Shown here in pieces: positions 10,544 through 48,683 of a stretch of 55,946 nucleotides of DNA (position 1 is its first letter; each line of letters starts with the position of its first letter). The stretch is from a virus. Position numbers and translations under genes: made by a program. A model generated the notes under the pieces. The model searched no databases and was not told where the DNA came from. It was given only the letters and a program-made list of their open reading frames with translations. Location of the stretch: IMG/VR virus record IMGVR_UViG_3300008258_000011, positions 1 through 55,946 of that record; one strand, given 5' to 3'.

Positions 10544-10551
10544 TATTTATT
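10544..10551 (-). promoter_or_regulatory. Late-promoter-like element AATAAATA
   Basis: T4-type late box variant 27 nt upstream of the GTG start of the 111-residue tail protein. Its core TAAATA matches the other late boxes in this window. Assigned by motif and position only. Confidence 0.45.
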
Positions 10552-10578
10552 GAATTTTGAAACGCTGGTTGCCAATAG

Positions 10579-10586
10579 TATAAATA
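10579..10586 (+). promoter_or_regulatory. T4-type late promoter TATAAATA
   Basis: Exact match to the T4 late consensus, on the plus strand 45 nt upstream of the ATG at 10631. It supports choosing that ATG instead of the earlier in-frame ATG at 10550, which would lie upstream of the transcription start. Confidence 0.7.
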
Positions 10587-10630
10587 GATTGAGCTCTTTG
10601 AAGCGATATTTAACCTATTATGGAGATACC

Positions 10631-11245
10631 ATGGATACTACTCAGCCTACCAGTCAAATAGTCAATACTTACGAAAAAGTCATATTCCCAACATCAATTC
10701 GTTGTTATGAATACGGCTTGACTCAAGAATTAATAGATTCTTTATTTGAACTTGTTTCTACAAAACCTACAGAAGATATAATGACATTAGAACATCCTTC
10801 TGTTGATAAATTCAAAGAAATTATTTACGATATCTGCCAAGAATTAGCTGAATTCAAAGCAGATACAAATGAAACTAGAAATGAGCCAATTCCACTCAAT
10901 GAAAAGCTAAACTATTTACCGCAGATTACTGGATCTAATATTCTATTCCAGCAACCTAAAGAACATATACCTCTGCATGCATATGAGTATACTCCACTAG
11001 TATTCACTTTTGTATTAAACACAGGAGAATACCCACAATTTACTTACTTTGCAGACACTCGTGGCGCAGTACAAACTATTCGCCAAAAAGTTTCACAGAA
11101 TTTAGTTGGAACAAGTTTCGGGCTAAGAGGTAAAGTTGGTGAAGTTATTATTACTCCTGGATACCTACAAAGATATACAGAAACTAACTTATCCGACCAA
11201 GCGCAAGTCTTCTTTAATGTTATGGTTGGGTTTGCTAGTTACTAA
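10631..11245 (+). CDS. 2OG-Fe(II) oxygenase-like protein with degenerate metal site
   Basis: A 204-residue protein and the only plus-strand gene in the fibre region. The start at 10631 follows GGAG and lies downstream of a TATAAATA late promoter. The pattern FPTSIRCYEYGL... PLHAYEYTPLVFTFVLN ... YFADTRG ... PGYLQRYTE...QAQVFFNVMV follows the layout of the putative 2OG-Fe(II) oxygenases common in marine phages (2OG-FeII_Oxy_5-like). In that family I expect an HxH-type ligand motif and a late His before the final strand. Here only one His of the first motif is visible and the late His position reads Gln/Arg. Catalysis is therefore doubtful, and a structural role is possible. Its 3' end overlaps the converging asparagine-synthetase-like gene. 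Confidence 0.5.
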   Translation: MDTTQPTSQIVNTYEKVIFPTSIRCYEYGLTQELIDSLFELVSTKPTEDIMTLEHPSVDKFKEIIYDICQELAEFKADTNETRNEPIPLNEKLNYLPQITGSNILFQQPKEHIPLHAYEYTPLVFTFVLNTGEYPQFTYFADTRGAVQTIRQKVSQNLVGTSFGLRGKVGEVIITPGYLQRYTETNLSDQAQVFFNVMVGFASY

Positions 11246-12247
11246 ACTATAATCTTCCAATAAAAACATCCAAGAGGGGTTCGAATTTGAAAGATTCGAT
11301 ACCCCTTTTGTTTTATTCCAAGAATAGTGTGCGTTGCCACTATATTCTTCTATAAGCTGTCGCATCTCCCATCTATGAGTTAGCGGATTGCCAACTTCTT
11401 TAGTAAATGGTTTGGTTGTAGTTATTGCATATCTTTGAAAATCTTCAGTATCAAAAAAGTGATAAACATTATCACGATTATTAGTAGTTACTAGAGCATC
11501 AAATTTTGCTGTATACCAGTCTAGGTTAAAAATGAACCACCATCTCAAATCTCTAACAGTCTCGATTTTCTTTGGGCTGGCTTCTATCATTGGTTTTAAA
11601 AATTCCAACTTTTCATCAGTTATACACTTACTGTAATGTGCCAATGGATCTTCATAATTAAACTGATGGTGAAATAAAGTCACTGAGGAATTTTTAGAAA
11701 AATCATCTGTTGGTCCAAACAACTGATTGCCCATAAATCCAGTTACATAAATTTGATCGGTTTCCTCAAATTCTTTTGTTTTGGTAACTGATATTTTATA
11801 TTCAATACCCAGCGGCAAAATATAGCGATCAAACATATCTCCAGATTCTAATATTGAAGAATACGTTCCATATACTCTAATCTGAGATTTATCATTTGCG
11901 AACTTTAGTAATGCAAATAGAGCTAAGGTACTATCAATCCCACCAGACCAAACAACATTAATTACTTTATCCAAAGAAAGTAACTCAACACACCTTTCTT
12001 CAATAACTTGCTCAAAAGATTTACTAAAACTTTTTGTAGTTGGAATTGGTGCCAAATTAGGTTTTATATTGATATAATGTGGTATAGTGCTAGTTCTATC
12101 GTATACAAGGTTTTGAGTATCCATTCCAAAATTTCTATATTTCTGAAATAGTTCTGGGGTATATTCTTTCGACAAATAAGGAAGAACTTCCTTAGATTCT
12201 ATCTTATCTGGAACTGAAAACACATTGTAATATAAAACTTGTAGCAT
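11189..12247 (-). CDS. Asparagine-synthetase-like PP-loop ATPase (no glutaminase domain)
   Basis: A 352-residue protein with a PP-loop SGGIDST at residues 101-107 after strand INVVW, followed by ALFALLKF and a second strand RVYGTYS. This is the layout of the synthetase domain of asparagine synthetase-type ATP pyrophosphatases, which adenylate a carboxylate and pass it to an amine. There is no N-terminal Cys glutaminase domain: the first 90 residues are unrelated and start MLQVLYYNVF. It would have to use free ammonia or another amine, as the lasso-peptide McjC family does with a peptide amine. It sits two genes from a radical SAM/SPASM enzyme under its own late promoter and hairpin. The substrate is unknown; the role in peptide maturation is my inference. 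Confidence 0.65.
   Translation of the reverse strand: MLQVLYYNVFSVPDKIESKEVLPYLSKEYTPELFQKYRNFGMDTQNLVYDRTSTIPHYINIKPNLAPIPTTKSFSKSFEQVIEERCVELLSLDKVINVVWSGGIDSTLALFALLKFANDKSQIRVYGTYSSILESGDMFDRYILPLGIEYKISVTKTKEFEETDQIYVTGFMGNQLFGPTDDFSKNSSVTLFHHQFNYEDPLAHYSKCITDEKLEFLKPMIEASPKKIETVRDLRWWFIFNLDWYTAKFDALVTTNNRDNVYHFFDTEDFQRYAITTTKPFTKEVGNPLTHRWEMRQLIEEYSGNAHYSWNKTKGVSNLSNSNPSWMFLLEDYSLVTSKPNHNIKEDLRLVG
11276..11312 (+). terminator. Intrinsic terminator embedded in the opposing gene
   Basis: On the plus strand, GGGGTTCGAAT pairs with ATTCGA-T-ACCCC: 11 bp with one bulged T and a 7-nt loop. It is followed by TTTTGTTTTATT. It lies about 30 nt after the oxygenase-like gene and inside the coding sequence of the converging minus-strand gene. 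Confidence 0.7.
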
Positions 12248-12304: not shown

Positions 12305-13252
12305 TTACTGTGCTTGAATACTTTGCACTAAACCTTTTGTAAAGTAGTATTGGAACTTTTCATATACAGAAGAAGTTACTTGCTTAAACTTTTGCTCTTC
12401 AGAAGCAGACATCTTAACAACTTCAACACCTTTAGCTTTACACTCAGCCAAGATATTTGGAATGTCAGCAACTGATTCACGACGCTCTTTGCGAGCAGCA
12501 TTAAATGCAGCAGTAGCCATAACTTCTTGAGTTTCTTGATCAAACTGCTTGAAGAAATCTTGGTTTACAATAATGCTAGTCAAGAACAAGCTATGTGCAG
12601 TATCATTAACTACAGCGAATGCTTCATTCTGTTGTAGTGGGAAAATACGTACATATGTAGATTCACCAGCAGAGATAACACCAGCATCAGCTGCTTCGTT
12701 CATTTCTTCAAGAGCAATATCTTTATTTGGTAGTGCGCCAAGTGCTTTGAAAGTTTCAACAGCAACTGGACTACGGCTAGTACGAACATTTTGTCCTTCC
12801 CAAGCTGCAACAGTATCAGCACGGAAATTCGCTGGAACTACACGGAAGCCACCAGAGTAAGTGAAAGACATCGCTTTGATATTCGACTGCTTAGAAACAC
12901 CAGCTAATAAATCAGTACCAATTGAACCTTCTAAAACGGCATCAGCGTGGTCATGGTCACGGAATAAGAATGGTAGATCCAACGCATGTAGATCTTTATT
13001 ATAGTCAGCTAACCAAGTAGTGTAGATATGACTCATTTCGATTGCGCCAGTATTGACTAATTCCATTAGTTCATTCTTGGTGATCTTCTTACCATCGTTA
13101 TATTTTGTAGCATAGTCAGAAAGTGACAACACTTCAATGTTAAATTTTCCACCAGTTTGTTCATTAACTTCTTTAGCGAATGAATCTGCTACCTTTAGAA
13201 ACAAACCAATTGGCTCATGAGCGATAACCCATTTAACGTGTTTTTGTTCCAC
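12305..13252 (-). CDS. TRAP-type (DctP-like) solute-binding protein without signal peptide
   Basis: A 315-residue protein that aligns by eye over its full length with mature TRAP transporter solute-binding proteins (DctP/SiaP family). Landmarks are SFAKEVNEQTGGKFNIEVLS (residues 24-43), LDLPFLFRDHDHADAVL (91-107), and WEGQNVRTSRSPVAVETFKALGA (151-173). R157 in NVRTS corresponds to the Arg that binds the substrate carboxylate in the family. These proteins are normally periplasmic and feed DctQM permeases. Here translation starts at a GTG after AAAGGAG directly at the mature sequence (MEQKHVKWVIAHEP), with no signal peptide and no permease gene. It is co-transcribed with a radical SAM enzyme in a late, tail-fibre context. 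The role is unknown: a cytoplasmic ligand binder, or a virion part captured from a host gene. Confidence 0.85.
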   Translation of the reverse strand: MEQKHVKWVIAHEPIGLFLKVADSFAKEVNEQTGGKFNIEVLSLSDYATKYNDGKKITKNELMELVNTGAIEMSHIYTTWLADYNKDLHALDLPFLFRDHDHADAVLEGSIGTDLLAGVSKQSNIKAMSFTYSGGFRVVPANFRADTVAAWEGQNVRTSRSPVAVETFKALGALPNKDIALEEMNEAADAGVISAGESTYVRIFPLQQNEAFAVVNDTAHSLFLTSIIVNQDFFKQFDQETQEVMATAAFNAARKERRESVADIPNILAECKAKGVEVVKMSASEEQKFKQVTSSVYEKFQYYFTKGLVQSIQAQ

Positions 13253-13577
13253 TTACATCTCCTTTATTTTTTCTAAAAATTAGATAGTCTGCCATCGATG
13301 TGTCAGCTACCCAGCATTCAATTCCATTAACTTTAATAAGCATAACTACTGGAATCTTATCCTTAATCAGGACATCCTTGTAGTTATTTATAAAATTTAA
13401 TTGTCTGCGAGTCCCTTTTACCTCAAATTCAGGCAATTGTATATTAAAATTATTGCTTTGATACACAATTGTCTCTGAATTGTAGTGATATACGTTTGCA
13501 AGCGTATACTTGTTAAGATTCTTACCGAACTTTGGAAACTGGTTAAGTTCCCAAATTTTGCAATCTAAAAACGCCAT
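13233..13577 (-). CDS. Unknown 114-residue protein of the radical SAM island
   Basis: I do not recognise this protein. It is mixed alpha/beta with a central cluster (KDKIPVVMLIKVNGIECWVADTSMADYLIF) that could form a small beta-sheet domain. It has two Cys, no signal peptide and no membrane segment. Its ATG overlaps the end of the radical SAM gene (shared base at 13577), and its 3' end overlaps the TRAP-like start by 20 nt, so the three genes are translationally coupled. Such placement would suit a partner or recognition protein of the radical SAM enzyme, but it has no obvious PqqD-like signature. Confidence 0.6.
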   Translation of the reverse strand: MAFLDCKIWELNQFPKFGKNLNKYTLANVYHYNSETIVYQSNNFNIQLPEFEVKGTRRQLNFINNYKDVLIKDKIPVVMLIKVNGIECWVADTSMADYLIFRKNKGDVSGTKTR

Positions 13578-15046
13578 TATTGTGGGACTGTAGGTACAGT
13601 TACGATAGGAATATTAACTGGCTTGCGTACTTTCCAAGATTTACTCTTACCACCAGATTTCACAAAATCAATGTCAATAACTGGAATAGAAGTAACACCA
13701 TCAAACCTAATCTTCTCACCTTGTATTTCTGTAAGAATTAAACCATCCGTAAGAACGAATAGCGAACTAGCTAAGATTCCTAAGTTATAATAAAATAAGT
13801 TTTCGCATGCTTGGGTCCAGTACTTATCTTCTAAAAACAAGCAAGCACCTTGACATAACTGAACTACTGGACATGATGGGCACTCAGCTCTAGTTGACCA
13901 GTGATATGAGTTAGTCAATCTAACATTATCTAAGTCATCAATATTACCCAAATTGTGCTTGGTTAAAGACGATGTATTTTGACAAGTAGTAACATTACCC
14001 TTCATATCAATGGCAATATTATCTTCTTTATCCATACCACACTTTTGACCAATAACTTCAGCAGGTCTTTGATATACTAGAGATTCAAAAAAGCTAGTTA
14101 CTTTCTGATTAACAGTCCAGCTAAATTGATTTCTGGTATTAATAGTTTCCCAGAAAAGTGCGTGTAGAATTTCTTTCTTTTCGTCTGGAGTTTGCAAAGA
14201 ATGTGCCATACCAGATTCATCATAAGGTAACATTAGTTCTTCAGTAGTTACTTGAAGTTCCATTTCATCAACCCCTACATGCTCATAGCCTAAATCTTTA
14301 CGATTTAATTTATCACAAATAAAATCTCTAACTGCAGCAATAGAAACATTCTCACGAGTTAATACGCAGTTAAAAGTGAATCTACCTTGACCCATAGTTT
14401 TTAGAGCATAAACTACAGCATCTTTAGCCTTTGGCTCATCTAGTGGATCTGGTCCACGATTTTGTGCATGTAATGGACCATCGTGCGACATACCAACAGA
14501 GAATCCCATTGAACGCAACCAATCAACTTTATCTCGATCTAAAAGTGAACCATTAGTCACCATCATAAACTGTGCGTTAGGATATACTCTTTTCATTTTC
14601 TCAGCCAGTGGCTTTAGGGTTTTCCAATAAACCATCGGCTCACCACCCCAAAACTCAAGACGGAATCTATCGTAAGTACCAAAACTAAAATTTTCTTTCA
14701 TTTTCTTAATCAACTCTTCAGCATCTTCTGGACCGCCAACGGGATCGTGTGGTTGATGAGCTTGATTGCAATAAGAACACGCATAGTTACACTTAAGACC
14801 CATTGTAATCTTAACTACAGTTGGGGTGCGTGATTTAGTTCCGTGAAGTTTTGGATCGTGGGGGTTTGTTACTTTTGCTGGAGTCCACTTCTTTACATCT
14901 ATTTGATATGTTAATCCATTTGAGATGTATTCCAGAGAAGGTTTCTCGCCAGTTTCTTCCCAATACATCTCTGATGTCATTGGGTCATAAACTAAAACCT
15001 GTTTCACTTCATTTGATCCTTGAAGAATCATTTTATAAGCAGCCAT
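13577..15046 (-). CDS. Radical SAM/SPASM peptide-modifying enzyme
   Basis: A 489-residue enzyme. The radical SAM motif CNYACSYC gives C86, C90 and C93 (CxxxCxxC, binding the SAM [4Fe-4S] cluster), followed by GGEP at 134-137. A complete SPASM domain follows: C336-x13-G350-x4-C355, then C389-x2-C392-x5-C398-x3-C402, and C414, enough for two auxiliary clusters. SPASM enzymes (anSME, PqqE, AlbA, thioether maturases) modify peptides or proteins, often at Cys. The start at 15046 follows AAAGGA. Upstream are a late promoter and a 12-bp hairpin. The nearby 17-Cys protein (16059-16427) is the obvious candidate substrate. Family assignment is firm; substrate and reaction are inferred. Confidence 0.92.
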   Translation of the reverse strand: MAAYKMILQGSNEVKQVLVYDPMTSEMYWEETGEKPSLEYISNGLTYQIDVKKWTPAKVTNPHDPKLHGTKSRTPTVVKITMGLKCNYACSYCNQAHQPHDPVGGPEDAEELIKKMKENFSFGTYDRFRLEFWGGEPMVYWKTLKPLAEKMKRVYPNAQFMMVTNGSLLDRDKVDWLRSMGFSVGMSHDGPLHAQNRGPDPLDEPKAKDAVVYALKTMGQGRFTFNCVLTRENVSIAAVRDFICDKLNRKDLGYEHVGVDEMELQVTTEELMLPYDESGMAHSLQTPDEKKEILHALFWETINTRNQFSWTVNQKVTSFFESLVYQRPAEVIGQKCGMDKEDNIAIDMKGNVTTCQNTSSLTKHNLGNIDDLDNVRLTNSYHWSTRAECPSCPVVQLCQGACLFLEDKYWTQACENLFYYNLGILASSLFVLTDGLILTEIQGEKIRFDGVTSIPVIDIDFVKSGGKSKSWKVRKPVNIPIVTVPTVPQ

Positions 15047-15069
15047 GTAATTCCTTTATAATAAATGTA

Positions 15070-15097
15070 AAATACCTTGTGGTGACACAAGGTATTT
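15070..15097 (-). terminator. Perfect 12-bp hairpin AAATACCTTGTG / CACAAGGTATTT
   Basis: A 12-bp perfect stem with a 4-nt loop (TCAC on the minus strand), followed by an AT-rich stretch. It lies between the 309-residue gene and the radical SAM gene. The late box CTAAATA overlaps its 5' arm. It may terminate the upstream unit and also form the 5' end of the radical SAM mRNA. Confidence 0.65.
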
Positions 15098-15100
15098 AGT
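15093..15100 (-). promoter_or_regulatory. Late promoter ACTAAATA before the radical SAM gene
   Basis: TAAATA-core late box overlapping the 5' arm of the hairpin, about 47 nt upstream of the radical SAM ATG. It indicates late expression of the enzyme, together with virion genes. Confidence 0.55.
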
Positions 15101-15116
15101 AGTACTTGCGCAAGAC

Positions 15117-16046
15117 TTAAATAATTTCAACCCAAAGTTCAGCGTAAGATTCAAACTGACCAAGATCAAATTTAAGTTTAGAAAAATCTCCAGCATCTAA
15201 CTCGGATATATCTAACTTAACACCAAACGTACCTGCACCAGAAGATACTCGTGTTTTGTTAATAAATCCATTAACTACACGAATATTATATGTGTTAGCA
15301 TTTTCTGGGTATAATCCCTTTTCAACATTAACTTCTATATTATACTTTGCCGCTGGCAAACTAACTTTGTATTTGTTTGATCTAGTAGGTTGACCTTGTG
15401 CATTTACTGCAAATAATCTAGTTTGTTCTGCATCAATAATCTGGGATCCATCTTCATTTTTAATTACAAATGTTAGATATGAAACTAGATTTTCATTAAT
15501 CCATAGATGTCTTTCTTGAGTAGTCATTTCCTCAACATCAGAATTTAAGATTATTGTATCAGCAGCGTCACCTTCGTGATTATTAAAGTAGAAATTTATT
15601 AAAGAACAATTAAATCCTGTTGCAGCAGCATCAAATGTTTTTACGTAAAATATAGGTAAGAGATTTTCAGTGTATCGTTTGTTAATATCTCTATGTAATT
15701 CAGTACCGTGGTAATTTGGCACTGATGATTTTTTAGATTTTCCAAAAGCTAAAACATCTAAAATCTCAAAAGAATTAGTTAGTACATTATACTCTGCATA
15801 ATACGCATTATGATCGGTTACCATAGGAAAATCGGCTGCCGTAAAAGTTCGCTCAAGCAAGGTTTCGTATGAAAGTTCTATATCGTCTTCTCTAGTCAAA
15901 TCTGGACGGATTACCTTTTCAATTTTAACAATAACTGTATCAGAAGAGTATTGTTGAGTGATTCGAATATTAGGGTTTACGCCAATAGGTGTATTTTCTA
16001 AATGGTCAAATCCAGTAATTATTGTTTTTGTTAATTTTACAGTCAT
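15117..16046 (-). CDS. Unknown 309-residue beta-rich protein, probably virion-associated
   Basis: I do not recognise this protein. The frame starts MTVKLTKTIITGFDHLENTPIGV after AAGGAT. Its C-terminal half reads like a beta-sandwich (KYKVSLPAAKYNIEVNVEKG, YNIRVVNGFINKT, KLDISELDAGDFSKLKFDLG). It lies 12 nt after the Cys-rich protein and upstream of the radical SAM gene, in the fibre-gene block. It lacks Cys clusters (one Cys only) and a signal peptide. It could be a fibre tip, an adaptor, or a protein that presents or assembles the Cys-rich neighbour. Function is unknown. Confidence 0.6.
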   Translation of the reverse strand: MTVKLTKTIITGFDHLENTPIGVNPNIRITQQYSSDTVIVKIEKVIRPDLTREDDIELSYETLLERTFTAADFPMVTDHNAYYAEYNVLTNSFEILDVLAFGKSKKSSVPNYHGTELHRDINKRYTENLLPIFYVKTFDAAATGFNCSLINFYFNNHEGDAADTIILNSDVEEMTTQERHLWINENLVSYLTFVIKNEDGSQIIDAEQTRLFAVNAQGQPTRSNKYKVSLPAAKYNIEVNVEKGLYPENANTYNIRVVNGFINKTRVSSGAGTFGVKLDISELDAGDFSKLKFDLGQFESYAELWVEII

Positions 16047-16058
16047 TTTTTATAATCC

Positions 16059-16427
16059 TTAACAGTTACAGTTACATGCGCAGTTACAGTTACATGCGCA
16101 GTTACAGTTACAGTTCACACGCAAGTATCTAAAATGACCCATACTTTGTTCTTGAGATTCGTGACGTAAACCATCGTTATATGAAGTTTGACGGAACACG
16201 TTCAAACGGAAGTCAGTAACGTGCACGTTGAACGCTAAGTCGGCAGCATCACAGTTACCGCAGTTACAGTTACATGCATCATTACATGCGTTACACGCAC
16301 AAGCCCATCCGCAGTTACCGTTTGAATCGTTTACACCACGATTACCAGTGTCTCCCTGCCATGTCCAAAATAAACCATTAAGGTCTGTGCCGTTTGATAT
16401 TCTAAATCCAGTTGCAGCTACAGGCAT
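16059..16427 (-). CDS. Cysteine-rich repeat protein, candidate radical SAM substrate
   Basis: A 122-residue protein with 17 Cys. It starts MPVAATGFRISNGTDLNGLFWTWQG after GGAG. A central cluster holds Cys at 39, 43, 45, 48, 52, 54, 56 and 59 (pattern with ACNCNCGNC). Residues 67-104 form a Cys-free linker. The C-terminus is NCNCNCACNCNCACNCNC: nine Cys at every second position from 106 to 122, alternating only with Asn or Ala. In an extended strand all these Cys face one side. No signal peptide is present. It directly follows an S74 tail fibre gene and lies two genes from a radical SAM/SPASM enzyme. I infer a virion protein matured by Cys modification (thioether cross-links or similar), or a metal-binding one. 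Confidence 0.75.
   Translation of the reverse strand: MPVAATGFRISNGTDLNGLFWTWQGDTGNRGVNDSNGNCGWACACNACNDACNCNCGNCDAADLAFNVHVTDFRLNVFRQTSYNDGLRHESQEQSMGHFRYLRVNCNCNCACNCNCACNCNC
16062..16112. repeat. 18-bp tandem repeat encoding the Cys-Asn/Ala tail
   Basis: About three copies of an 18-bp unit built from agttac and atgcgc hexamers. They encode the terminal alternating Cys-Asn/Cys-Ala stretch. The unit can expand or contract in frame. Confidence 0.75.
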
Positions 16428-16428
16428 A

Positions 16429-17607
16429 TTATTTCTCCAGTTTCTCTAAGCGAGTATTTAATTCTTTTATAGTGTTTTGTTGTTCTTTAATAGCTTCAAT
16501 TAAAAGTCCTACCACGTTTGCATACGCAACAGTCTTAAATCCGTCTGGAGTTTCACCAACAACTTCTGGTAAAAATTGTTCGACTTCTTGAGCGATTAAA
16601 CCGATTTCCTTCTTACCATCTTTTAGATAAGAAACTCCACGGAGTTTATTAACAACATCTACAGCATTATTTAGCGTTTTTACATCTGCTTTCAATCTAG
16701 CATCTGATGATTGCTGAAATAAATTAGCAAAAACACTACCGCTAAATGTATTTGAAGTACCTGCAAAGGTGTTATTTGAGGCTAAGGAAGGTACGTCCTC
16801 ACCAGTAGTAATTGTAGGATTTCCAGCAACACCATCGCCATTGGTAACAACAATTTTACCAGTAGTACCACTAATTCCACGTGTTACAGAAGATCCGTTG
16901 CCAGTTCTAACGTAAATACCGTTGGTAGCGATACCTGATAGTGCTACCAAGTCCGCATCGTAAGGCTGAACATCTGTACCAATAACAAGCCCTAGAGTAG
17001 ATCTTGCTGAAGCAGCATCCGCATCATCAACTAGGGTTCTGGCAAAAGAAGTAAAGGTTGCTAGAGCAGCAGTTCCAGAGCCAGTGTAATAAGGCAATCT
17101 ATCTGCAGCAGAATTTAATTCTGCAATAGCAGCTAGTTCAACGTCATATGCTTGTACGTTTACACCAATTTCTAATCCTAGATTATATCTAGCGTTAGTA
17201 GCGTTAGTAGCACCAGTACCACCAACACTAACTGGGATAGATCCACCAGAAATACTAATACTACCAACAGCGAGATTACCTGAAAACGAACCAGATGTTC
17301 CAGATAGTGCTCCAACCAGAGTTAGTGCATTTAAAGTAGTATTACCAGTTGCATCACGTGCAACGATAGAACTTTTATCCGTTGGGATAGGTAGAGTAGA
17401 TAACGCAGACAATCCATCAAGAAAGTCTGAATCTAAACCAGAACCTGTTCCATCAACTGTTTTTATCTTTGTTAAGATATCCGCAGCATTGTAACTAGCT
17501 GAATTTAGCTTAGTTGCTAACTCGTCATTTAAGTTTGTAAAGTTAGCATCTACTTCTACGTTGGTAAGGGGAGAACCTTTGGTAGTTCTTAAGACTAATG
17601 TCGCCAT
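16429..17607 (-). CDS. Tail fibre protein with peptidase S74 chaperone
   Basis: A 392-residue fibre protein. The N-terminus (MATLVLRTTKGSPLTNVEVDANFTNLNDE) is the conserved attachment segment of many marine phage fibres. The middle has two similar repeats (YNLGLEIGVNVQAYDVELAAIAEL and RSTLGLVIGTDVQPYDADLVALSGI). The C-terminus from SSDARLKADVKTL is a peptidase S74 intramolecular chaperone (GVSYLKDGKKEIGLIAQEVEQFLPEVV), ending in a coiled coil (IKEQQNTIKELNTRLEKLEK). S74 domains guide trimer folding and cut themselves off at the Ser before Asp. It is followed 2 nt later by the Cys-rich protein gene, which suggests that protein works at the same fibre. Confidence 0.9.
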   Translation of the reverse strand: MATLVLRTTKGSPLTNVEVDANFTNLNDELATKLNSASYNAADILTKIKTVDGTGSGLDSDFLDGLSALSTLPIPTDKSSIVARDATGNTTLNALTLVGALSGTSGSFSGNLAVGSISISGGSIPVSVGGTGATNATNARYNLGLEIGVNVQAYDVELAAIAELNSAADRLPYYTGSGTAALATFTSFARTLVDDADAASARSTLGLVIGTDVQPYDADLVALSGIATNGIYVRTGNGSSVTRGISGTTGKIVVTNGDGVAGNPTITTGEDVPSLASNNTFAGTSNTFSGSVFANLFQQSSDARLKADVKTLNNAVDVVNKLRGVSYLKDGKKEIGLIAQEVEQFLPEVVGETPDGFKTVAYANVVGLLIEAIKEQQNTIKELNTRLEKLEK

Positions 17608-48027: not shown

Positions 48028-48234
48028 TTACTTCTTATCTTCTACTTTTTTCTTAGGTGTTGGCTTTTCACTCTTTGGTAGAGGTGGGCACTTACCATTC
48101 TTGTCTTTCTTTACGCAATTATCATTTTGCCCAGCAGGGACTTCTTTCTTTGCTGGTTCAGCTGCATATGCGGTAACTTGATAACCAACAAATGACCAGA
48201 TGACTAAGTTTAGTGCAATTAAAAATTTCTTCAT
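48028..48234 (-). CDS. Small secreted, Lys/Pro-rich protein
   Basis: A 68-residue protein with a typical signal peptide (MKKFLIALNLVIWSFVGYQV, cleavage likely after AYA-AEP). The mature part is charged and Pro-rich with two Cys (NDNCVKKDKNGKCPPLPK, then PKKKVEDKK). It is preceded by AAAGGA. It lies directly downstream of the coding piece of the tmRNA, and could be co-transcribed from the same promoters. Periplasmic function is unknown. Confidence 0.6.
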   Translation of the reverse strand: MKKFLIALNLVIWSFVGYQVTAYAAEPAKKEVPAGQNDNCVKKDKNGKCPPLPKSEKPTPKKKVEDKK

Positions 48235-48239
48235 TTGAA

Positions 48240-48445
48240 TATCCTTTTAGAATTAGTGATAGGTTATTCTGTTACGAGGAAACCTATCGAAACCCTAAGC
48301 AGTGTTTAGGCTGCTAAAGCGAACTGTGCGTCGTTTGCATTTACGTTTTTTGCTTCTGCGACCGAGTTTCCCCAATCCTACGGGTTTCACATTCCCGTGC
48401 TGTCCACTTGTTTACTTGTTGCCCTGTCGAAACCTAGTCACCCCC
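48240..48445 (-). ncRNA. ssrA: Permuted tmRNA, coding (tag) piece
   Basis: The piece starts at 48445 with GGGGGTGACTAGGTTTCGAC, the usual 5' part of tmRNA. GGGGGTG pairs with CACCTCC of the acceptor piece (48584-48650), with G3-U70 wobble as needed by alanyl-tRNA synthetase. The tag frame ends GCT TTA GCA GCC TAA at 48306, giving a tag within AEAKNVNANDAQFALAA (resume codon not certain). The ALAA end is typical for ClpXP-directed tags. The 3' end near 48240 is approximate; GATAGGTT/AACCTATC forms a terminal helix. Because the acceptor part lies upstream, this is a circularly permuted two-piece tmRNA. Confidence 0.88.
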
Positions 48446-48446
48446 A

Positions 48447-48572
48447 TCAGAAAAAATCTTTCTTGGCTTGCTCTTGATCTTTTTCAAAATTACTCCAATC
48501 ATAAGTAACTAAACTATAAACCCAGTATACGTTTAGCACTACAATTAATACTAACAAAATCAAGTTTTCCAT
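48447..48572 (-). CDS. 41-residue single-TM protein between the two tmRNA pieces
   Basis: ATG at 48572 with AAAGGA upstream. MENLILLVLIVVLNVYWVYS is one membrane segment followed by LVTYDWSNFEKDQEQAKKDF. Its TGA ends one base before the mature 5' end of the tmRNA coding piece, and its start lies 11 nt after the acceptor CCA. It fills the segment that is normally removed between the two tmRNA pieces. If real, it would have to be translated from the precursor or from the excised intervening RNA. Confidence 0.6.
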   Translation of the reverse strand: MENLILLVLIVVLNVYWVYSLVTYDWSNFEKDQEQAKKDFF

Positions 48573-48583
48573 AAAATCCTTTC

Positions 48584-48650
48584 TGGTGGAGGTGGAGGGA
48601 ATCGAACCCTCGTCCAGAACACCTTTCTCTTTGCTTCATACAGCAATAAC
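48584..48650 (-). ncRNA. ssrA: Permuted tmRNA, acceptor piece
   Basis: The tRNA-like 3' part lies upstream of the coding part. T-arm GAGGG-TTCGATT-CCCTC (48611-48595), acceptor strand CACCTCC, discriminator A and encoded CCA ending at 48584. The acceptor strand pairs with GGGGGTG at 48445-48439 with a G3-U70 wobble. The 5' end near 48650 is inferred from the TATAAT box at 48655-48660. Two-piece tmRNAs of this order are known in Alphaproteobacteria and some cyanobacteria. Confidence 0.88.
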
Positions 48651-48654
48651 CTTA

Positions 48655-48683
48655 ATTATACCTTATAGTTATTTATATAGCAA
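48655..48683 (-). promoter_or_regulatory. Host-type promoter for tmRNA (TTGCTA-N17-TATAAT)
   Basis: TATAAT at 48660-48655 preceded at 17 nt by TTGCTA. It has the same GG before TATAAT as the other early promoters. The -35 is weaker than at the other sites. Confidence 0.5.
48670..48677 (-). promoter_or_regulatory. T4 late promoter TATAAATA in front of the tmRNA
   Basis: Exact T4 late consensus within the spacer of the host-type promoter and overlapping the stop of the nuclease gene. The tmRNA may therefore be made both early and late. Confidence 0.6.

Follow-up and report, generated by a model that had tools for sequence, protein, structure and literature searches.

The radical SAM/SPASM enzyme and its Cys-rich neighbour

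The window analysed here, 55,946 nucleotides of DNA (IMG/VR virus record IMGVR_UViG_3300008258_000011, positions 1-55,946), is a fragment of a contractile-tail, T4-type phage with baseplate wedge, hub, tail and tail-fibre PHROGs, and it encodes on one strand a radical S-adenosylmethionine (SAM) enzyme together with a 122-residue protein that holds 17 Cys (Table 1). A first-pass annotation of this DNA had given the enzyme an intact CxxxCxxC and a full seven-Cys SPASM set, had divided the Cys of the small protein into a central cluster of eight and an alternating tail of nine, and had placed the pair 'two genes away' from each other in a late tail-fibre setting. All of this stands, the distance in the sense that exactly one gene lies between the two and the setting through the PHROGs named above. 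The association extends far beyond this locus: genes for a SPASM radical SAM enzyme and for a tail-fibre or tail-region protein with an Asn-Cys (NC) tail stand close together in many unrelated phages and prophages, the enzyme gene almost always lying a short way downstream.

Window proteins were compared with the Pfam, NCBIfam and PHROGs libraries, with the PDB by profile and fold, and with PADLOC. The 489-residue enzyme belongs to the radical SAM superfamily by its CxxxCxxC, by a predicted fold that agrees with the partial TIM barrel of that superfamily and by profile (Pfam Radical_SAM PF04055, 43.1 bits against a cut-off of 29.5) and carries a SPASM domain (TIGR04085, 35.9 bits against 27). 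The three Cys of the CxxxCxxC (C86/C90/C93) and the seven of the SPASM region (C336/C355/C389/C392/C398/C402/C414) are all invariant in alignments of 32 and then 39 sequences, the relatives in the latter being 31-78% identical to the window enzyme. The best family is phrog_1802 (213 bits, E=1.2e-62), shared with Achromobacter phages JWF and 2-1, with a long match in at least two phage isolates (three records); its annotation gives no function and no link to NC tails. The AlphaFold2 (AF2) model of the enzyme, with a mean predicted local distance difference test (pLDDT) of 90.6 and a predicted template modelling score (pTM) of 0.90, matches CteB best, followed by anSME with peptide, ChlB, TigE and SuiB, EpeE being a weaker match; similarly, a PDB profile search returns TigE, anSME and CteB. 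The closest folds are thus those of peptide and protein maturases, from which the substrate is expected to be a stretch of peptide. On sequence and predicted fold the enzyme is classed as a SPASM maturase, although it falls far below every NCBIfam equivalog cut-off for maturases of ribosomally synthesised and post-translationally modified peptides (RiPPs), scoring 69 bits against 450 for DynA, 68 against 340 for PapB, 50 against 425 for SCIFF/CteB and 62 against 349 for anSME, with the others likewise missed. The anSME score rules out a sulfatase maturase, and viperin (pVip defence) is also ruled out, the PADLOC pVip match (52 bits) covering residues 81-197 only, the NCBIfam viperin equivalog reaching 55.7 bits against a cut-off of 180, and a SPASM domain being present. 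In a quick tree without bootstrap, cellular and phage enzymes are intermixed, with at least three changes between the two.

The eight central Cys of the 122-residue protein lie at residues 39-59 and the other nine within its last 18 residues, NCNCNCACNCNCACNCNC, which follow the pattern (N/A-C)9. Among six close relatives the codons of this tail differ by 41 synonymous and 5 non-synonymous changes, and no Cys is lost. The protein has no PHROG, Pfam, NCBIfam or PDB match, tail-fibre families included, and tblastn against phage isolates returned no match, a search in which low-complexity filtering may mask the tail.

The Asn-Cys tail and its co-occurrence with the enzyme

The first-pass annotation had asked whether the two genes always occur together in related genomes, and this was examined in both directions. 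Counts from IMG/VR and bacterial genomes refer to the matches listed and are lower bounds; the collected loci are partly redundant, open reading frame (ORF) starts were assigned mechanically, and the radical SAM detector is a profile built from these same loci. A scan of IMG/VR with the window enzyme gave at least 27 loci, in which close relatives with upstream sequence are accompanied by the same Cys-Asn-Cys protein and distant ones (33-39% identity) by different proteins ending in the same type of tail. For the motif-first search, IMG/VR was searched at the DNA level for CNCNCNC alone, a testable locus being an ORF of at least 60 residues that has a C-terminal motif and is followed by 3 kb of sequence or more. 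A same-strand radical SAM gene lies downstream in 37/37 such loci, compared with 0/64 control loci with a DNA match to CNCNCNC and no C-terminal tail; the NC-tail loci that lack the enzyme all have less than 3 kb of downstream sequence. L051 and L107, two further loci that carry the enzyme, are variants whose NC region is not placed at the C-terminus.

When the search began from the enzyme, viral and bacterial genomes scanned by profile yielded at least 180 loci, grouped at 90% identity into 134. Among these listed groups 94 have the tail, 9 a Hint fusion and 7 an internal NC region, 10 are untestable and 14 have none, so that an NC protein accompanies the enzyme in 110 of the 124 testable groups. 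Among ORFs upstream of the radical SAM gene 150/2994 contain the motif, versus 92/16614 among other ORFs. Eight of the 14 groups without an NC protein score below 480 bits and are cellular (L239, L246, L287, L291-294, L303), in operons of RiPP type or of a less clear kind. Among those examined, L287 and L294 have a YcaO neighbour, L239 adjoins genes for a C39-peptidase ABC exporter and HlyD, and one further cousin adjoins an ABC exporter; L287, L294 and L239 are therefore RiPP-type operons. The other six are mostly accounted for by position, truncation or frameshift, L170 excepted. On locus-by-locus reading, the NC protein lies 6 kb upstream of the enzyme in L020/L179 and downstream, fused to another segment, in L202-204, L208, L219 and L220, the sequence of L226 stops shortly after the enzyme, and L262 appears frameshifted. 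The two-way test rules out chance pairing, and the retention of Cys in the face of the codon changes described above, together with recurrence in more than 100 locus groups, leads to the same conclusion. A maturase with a dedicated gene-encoded putative substrate, as expected of a RiPP system, is thus present as a genetic association. Carriers include Limnohabitans, Burkholderia paludis, Polynucleobacter, Thalassobacter and Nereida, besides the two Achromobacter phages. Around the radical SAM genes checked in Campylobacter CP220 and Erwinia EarlPhillipIV no NC-type protein was found, and therefore not every phage radical SAM gene belongs to such a cassette.

The NC-tailed proteins have unrelated N-terminal parts and share the C-terminal (Asn-Cys)n tail. 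Nine of ten diverse examples match phage structural PHROGs, mostly tail fibre, and two contain collagen triple-helix repeats and are for that reason probably trimeric. Most of the tails terminate proteins of 200-616 residues, many of them tail fibres, and some NC proteins have just 67-130 residues; 72 of 158 distinct C-termini stop exactly at the end of the tract. Inside the tracts the residue before Cys is Asn in 605/836 cases (72%), Ala in 101 (12%) and Asp in 71, and of about 636 Cys upstream of the tracts 495 (78%) likewise follow an Asn. In other ORFs Asn is not among the top eight residues preceding Cys and stays below about 5%. The conserved unit is therefore Asn-Cys and not just alternation.

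In ten loci, spread over several branches of the enzyme tree, a self-cleaving Hint domain begins immediately after the tract. In Achromobacter phage JWF the junction reads NCNCDCNCNCS|CFPAGT, with Pfam Hom_end_hint starting at that Cys, and in both JWF and 2-1 the tract lies in the fibre gene directly before the domain. By analogy with known Hint domains, self-cleavage would leave the Asn-Cys tract as the C-terminus. A separate arrangement is seen at L037 (2383-2754, minus strand), where a 123-residue protein has a C-C-Q / C-Q-x-C-Q tract and, after it, NCNCDCNCNCS..., with a radical SAM gene and a possible Hint-like ORF nearby. In L203, L204, L208, L219, L220 and L051 the NC-rich protein runs into a C-terminal segment with hydrophobic stretches, which may reflect a gene fusion or a missed frameshift.

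A proposed maturation of the tail tip and its alternatives

The organisation of these loci points to a chemical means, not described so far, by which the tip of a virus may be hardened or armed. The NC tail is very probably the substrate of the enzyme, and, judging from domain families and gene position, the NC-tailed product is quite likely to be part of the virion. The cassette as a whole would then be a phage-encoded RiPP-like system that probably matures a tail-tip protein through its C-terminal Asn-Cys tract. The first-pass annotation had proposed a phage system maturing a tail component through Cys, and the co-occurrence, the tail-fibre PHROGs, the collagen repeats and the Hint fusions all support it. 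Beyond that proposal, the cassette is widespread and modular, its unit is Asn-Cys, and oxygenases, a second radical SAM enzyme and a beta-rich partner belong to it. The broadest claim, given somewhat more credence than doubt, is that in many double-stranded DNA phages the tail-fibre tips undergo covalent remodelling on a C-terminal Asn-Cys tract by a dedicated, mobile set of radical and oxidative enzymes (the SPASM enzyme, a second radical SAM enzyme, 2-oxoglutarate (2OG)-Fe(II) oxygenases, a desaturase-like protein and a PP-loop protein), which would define a new class of virion post-translational modification.

In the proposed mechanism the fibre or tail protein would be bound by the enzyme before or during assembly, and 5'-deoxyadenosyl radical chemistry aided by two auxiliary Fe-S clusters would modify the Asn-Cys units. 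The bond formed would most likely join the Cys sulphur to C-beta (or C-alpha) of Asn/Asp, in the manner of ranthipeptide and sactipeptide synthases. Where present, the 2OG-Fe(II) oxygenases, second radical SAM enzyme, desaturase-like and PP-loop proteins would make further changes, and where a Hint domain follows, its self-cleavage would expose the tract as the C-terminus. The resulting rigid or chemically special tip may aid receptor contact or envelope penetration. SPASM-type radical SAM enzymes are reported to form Cys-Asp and Cys-Asn S-C-beta links, and QhpD to make its links within a protein (PMC11002830). A Cys-centred thioether is favoured here because the Cys-rich tract has Asn/Asp neighbours, and by analogy with these enzymes it is put forward tentatively, at a little under an even chance.

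CteB, PapB and QhpD share with the window enzyme the SPASM fold and the seven-Cys pattern, and ranthipeptide and sactipeptide synthases similarly have a Cys-rich substrate adjoining the enzyme and a reported Cys-Asn/Asp thioether chemistry (PMC11002830). In contrast to CteB, PapB and QhpD, the substrate proposed here is the C-terminal tail of a phage tail protein, a leader or release protease is not evident, and the equivalog cut-offs are missed. anSME is also a radical SAM/SPASM maturase of a protein target (template modelling score about 0.63), and the JWF gene is annotated as such; unlike the anSME case, no sulfatase lies nearby and many Cys rather than one are concerned. The whole is classed as a variant of known radical SAM maturation systems and would, if confirmed, be a new kind of virion modification.

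Several points weigh against this maturation. No leader/core arrangement or release protease was recognised in the window, and among the collected loci a self-cleavage site after the tract is provided by the ten Hint fusions only. The cross-link partner is deduced, and Ala and other spacers occur in the tract. A beta strand that binds metal would likewise show strict X-C alternation. The NC protein of the window is separate, small and without a family match, and L170 has the enzyme without a recognised NC protein and without clear reason.

One alternative, for which the alternation speaks, is a metal needle, in which the Cys of a trimeric fibre would point inward and bind metal or an Fe-S cluster while the radical SAM enzyme serves another substrate or cluster assembly. 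The C-terminal position of the tract on collagen-type trimeric fibres agrees with such a needle, as does the T4 gp37 tip, where alternating His-X-His pairs at the C-terminus of a trimeric fibre coordinate iron (cited in PMC10175313); the likeness to gp37 is one of motif and position, and gp37 has His in place of Cys and is not known to have a radical SAM partner. The needle is nevertheless unlikely, since it leaves a SPASM peptide maturase in 37/37 loci unaccounted for, isolated and non-alternating Cys are also preceded by Asn, and small NC proteins exist that are not obvious fibres. A more serious, though still doubtful, competitor keeps the tail as substrate and changes the chemistry to Cys oxidation of the anaerobic sulfatase maturation type, to C-alpha epimerisation as in EpeE and proteusins, or to C-C bonds. 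anSME ranks high in both the structural and the profile comparison, EpeE lower in the structural one, and epimerised repeats may resemble the alternating tract in geometry. Every NCBIfam equivalog cut-off is widely missed, however, that of the sulfatase maturase included, an aromatic cyclophane motif is not evident in the tract, and Asn/Asp beside Cys would be better suited as acceptors for a thioether (PMC11002830).

The short NC proteins, and the YcaO and C39 exporter genes beside cellular cousins of the enzyme, would suit a diffusible RiPP that is encoded by the phage genome and acts outside the virion, in the manner of a bacteriocin or a signal. Against this, most NC tails belong to the longer proteins, the phage cassettes inspected are without exporter or protease, and the NC genes are located among tail genes, which makes a diffusible product very improbable. 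Earlier papers reported many radical SAM genes in some phages and took them as metabolic or Fe-S related (PMC2853527, PMC5332604). An auxiliary metabolic gene with a coincidental NC neighbour is hardly credible for the present enzyme, given the 37/37 versus 0/64 association, the conserved order and strand, and fibres that are otherwise unrelated and have just the tail in common.

Neither NC-tailed fibres nor radical SAM modification of virions was found described in the open-access literature (subscription papers and preprints lay outside the search), in line with the first-pass annotation, which had known of no phage system of this kind. If tail-tip maturation by the cassette holds, phages apply natural-product chemistry to the tips that contact the host, and a function is gained for the radical SAM genes of phrog_1802 and possibly for some 2OG oxygenase genes usually termed auxiliary metabolic genes. 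The modification would then be expected in virions of the cultured phages JWF and 2-1 and from the loci of named cultured hosts, and a genetically encoded substrate with many natural enzyme-substrate pairs would serve studies of SPASM chemistry.

Cassette neighbours and further observations

Table 1 Features of the radical SAM/SPASM locus in the window (positions in the 55,946-nucleotide stretch).
Feature	Position	Strand	Basis
Radical SAM/SPASM enzyme, proposed maturase	13577..15046	-	phrog_1802 family, Pfam, NCBIfam, predicted fold
CxxxCxxC (C86/C90/C93), where the 4Fe-4S cluster that cleaves SAM is bound	14768..14791	-	Invariant in alignment
Seven-Cys region of the SPASM domain (C336-C414), expected to hold two auxiliary clusters	13805..14041	-	TIGR04085 above cut-off; invariant
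122-residue 17-Cys protein of the tail region, small and separate, proposed as substrate	16059..16427	-	Homologues in the same place in L003-L014, L016-L019
(Asn/Ala-Cys)9 tail at the C-terminus (residues 105-122), where modification is proposed	16062..16115	-	Codon comparison; common to unrelated phage proteins
Eight clustered Cys in the centre (C39-C59), most of them in N-C / A-C	16251..16316	-	Sequence
309-residue beta-rich partner, conserved C-terminal domain, possibly Ig-like	15117..16046	-	Sole gene between 17-Cys and radical SAM genes
Tail fibre bearing an endosialidase-type chaperone domain; its gene adjoins the 17-Cys gene on the upstream side	16429..17607	-	Pfam Peptidase_S74 51.6 bits; tail-fibre PHROGs
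114-residue satellite protein	13233..13577	-	Relatives in at least 26 loci; no Pfam, NCBIfam or PHROG match
DctP-type solute-binding protein	12305..13252	-	Pfam DctP 151 bits; relatives in at least 33 loci
352-residue protein, PP-loop-like SGGIDS motif	11189..12247	-	Relatives in at least 40 loci including distant cassettes

Homologues of the 309-residue protein sit between the NC protein and the radical SAM gene in at least 117 loci of the redundant set. Its C-terminal domain is the best conserved part and its AF2 model has a pLDDT of 89.3, with no usable PDB fold match and no profile match; chaperone, adhesin and recognition protein are candidate roles. Loci in which the NC gene directly adjoins the radical SAM gene (e.g. 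L059, L067) have no such homologue, so that it is not strictly needed. The 352-residue protein has a weak match to the QueC-like phrog_1550 (E=0.0048) and none in Pfam or the PDB, and its sequence makes it a possible tailoring enzyme. Optional genes in the interval between the NC and radical SAM genes encode 2OG-Fe(II) oxygenases of several families, a second radical SAM enzyme and a fatty-acid-desaturase-like protein. A second tier of loci contains more distant radical SAM enzymes, up to four per locus, beside other NC-tailed proteins. L043 (3051-10408) and L121 (240-5579) encode short NC proteins of 67-79 residues (..STACNCNCNCNC.RGIL), together with related proteins that match no family, and contain three or four consecutive radical SAM-like genes.

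Among the cellular enzyme cousins, L287, L294 and L303 have a short upstream peptide with a DC(G/S)xAISPxP-like end, the YcaO gene of the former two also lying upstream; they are candidates for RiPP operons not yet characterised, found in Variovorax and in a gammaproteobacterial metagenome-assembled genome. In the window, the DctP-type protein adjoins the radical SAM gene and starts at the mature domain, with no signal peptide evident and no transporter partner nearby; a cytoplasmic or virion-borne binding protein is odd for a phage. A 231-residue ORF on the opposite strand (10550-11245, plus strand), with relatives in at least 20 loci and no Pfam match, resembles by eye a degenerate 2OG-oxygenase fold. 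At 48215-48676 (minus strand) lies a phage permuted tmRNA gene with the tag ANDAQFALAA (Rfam tmRNA_permuted 120 bits, beta_tmRNA 96 bits), the beta_tmRNA match hinting at a betaproteobacterial host.

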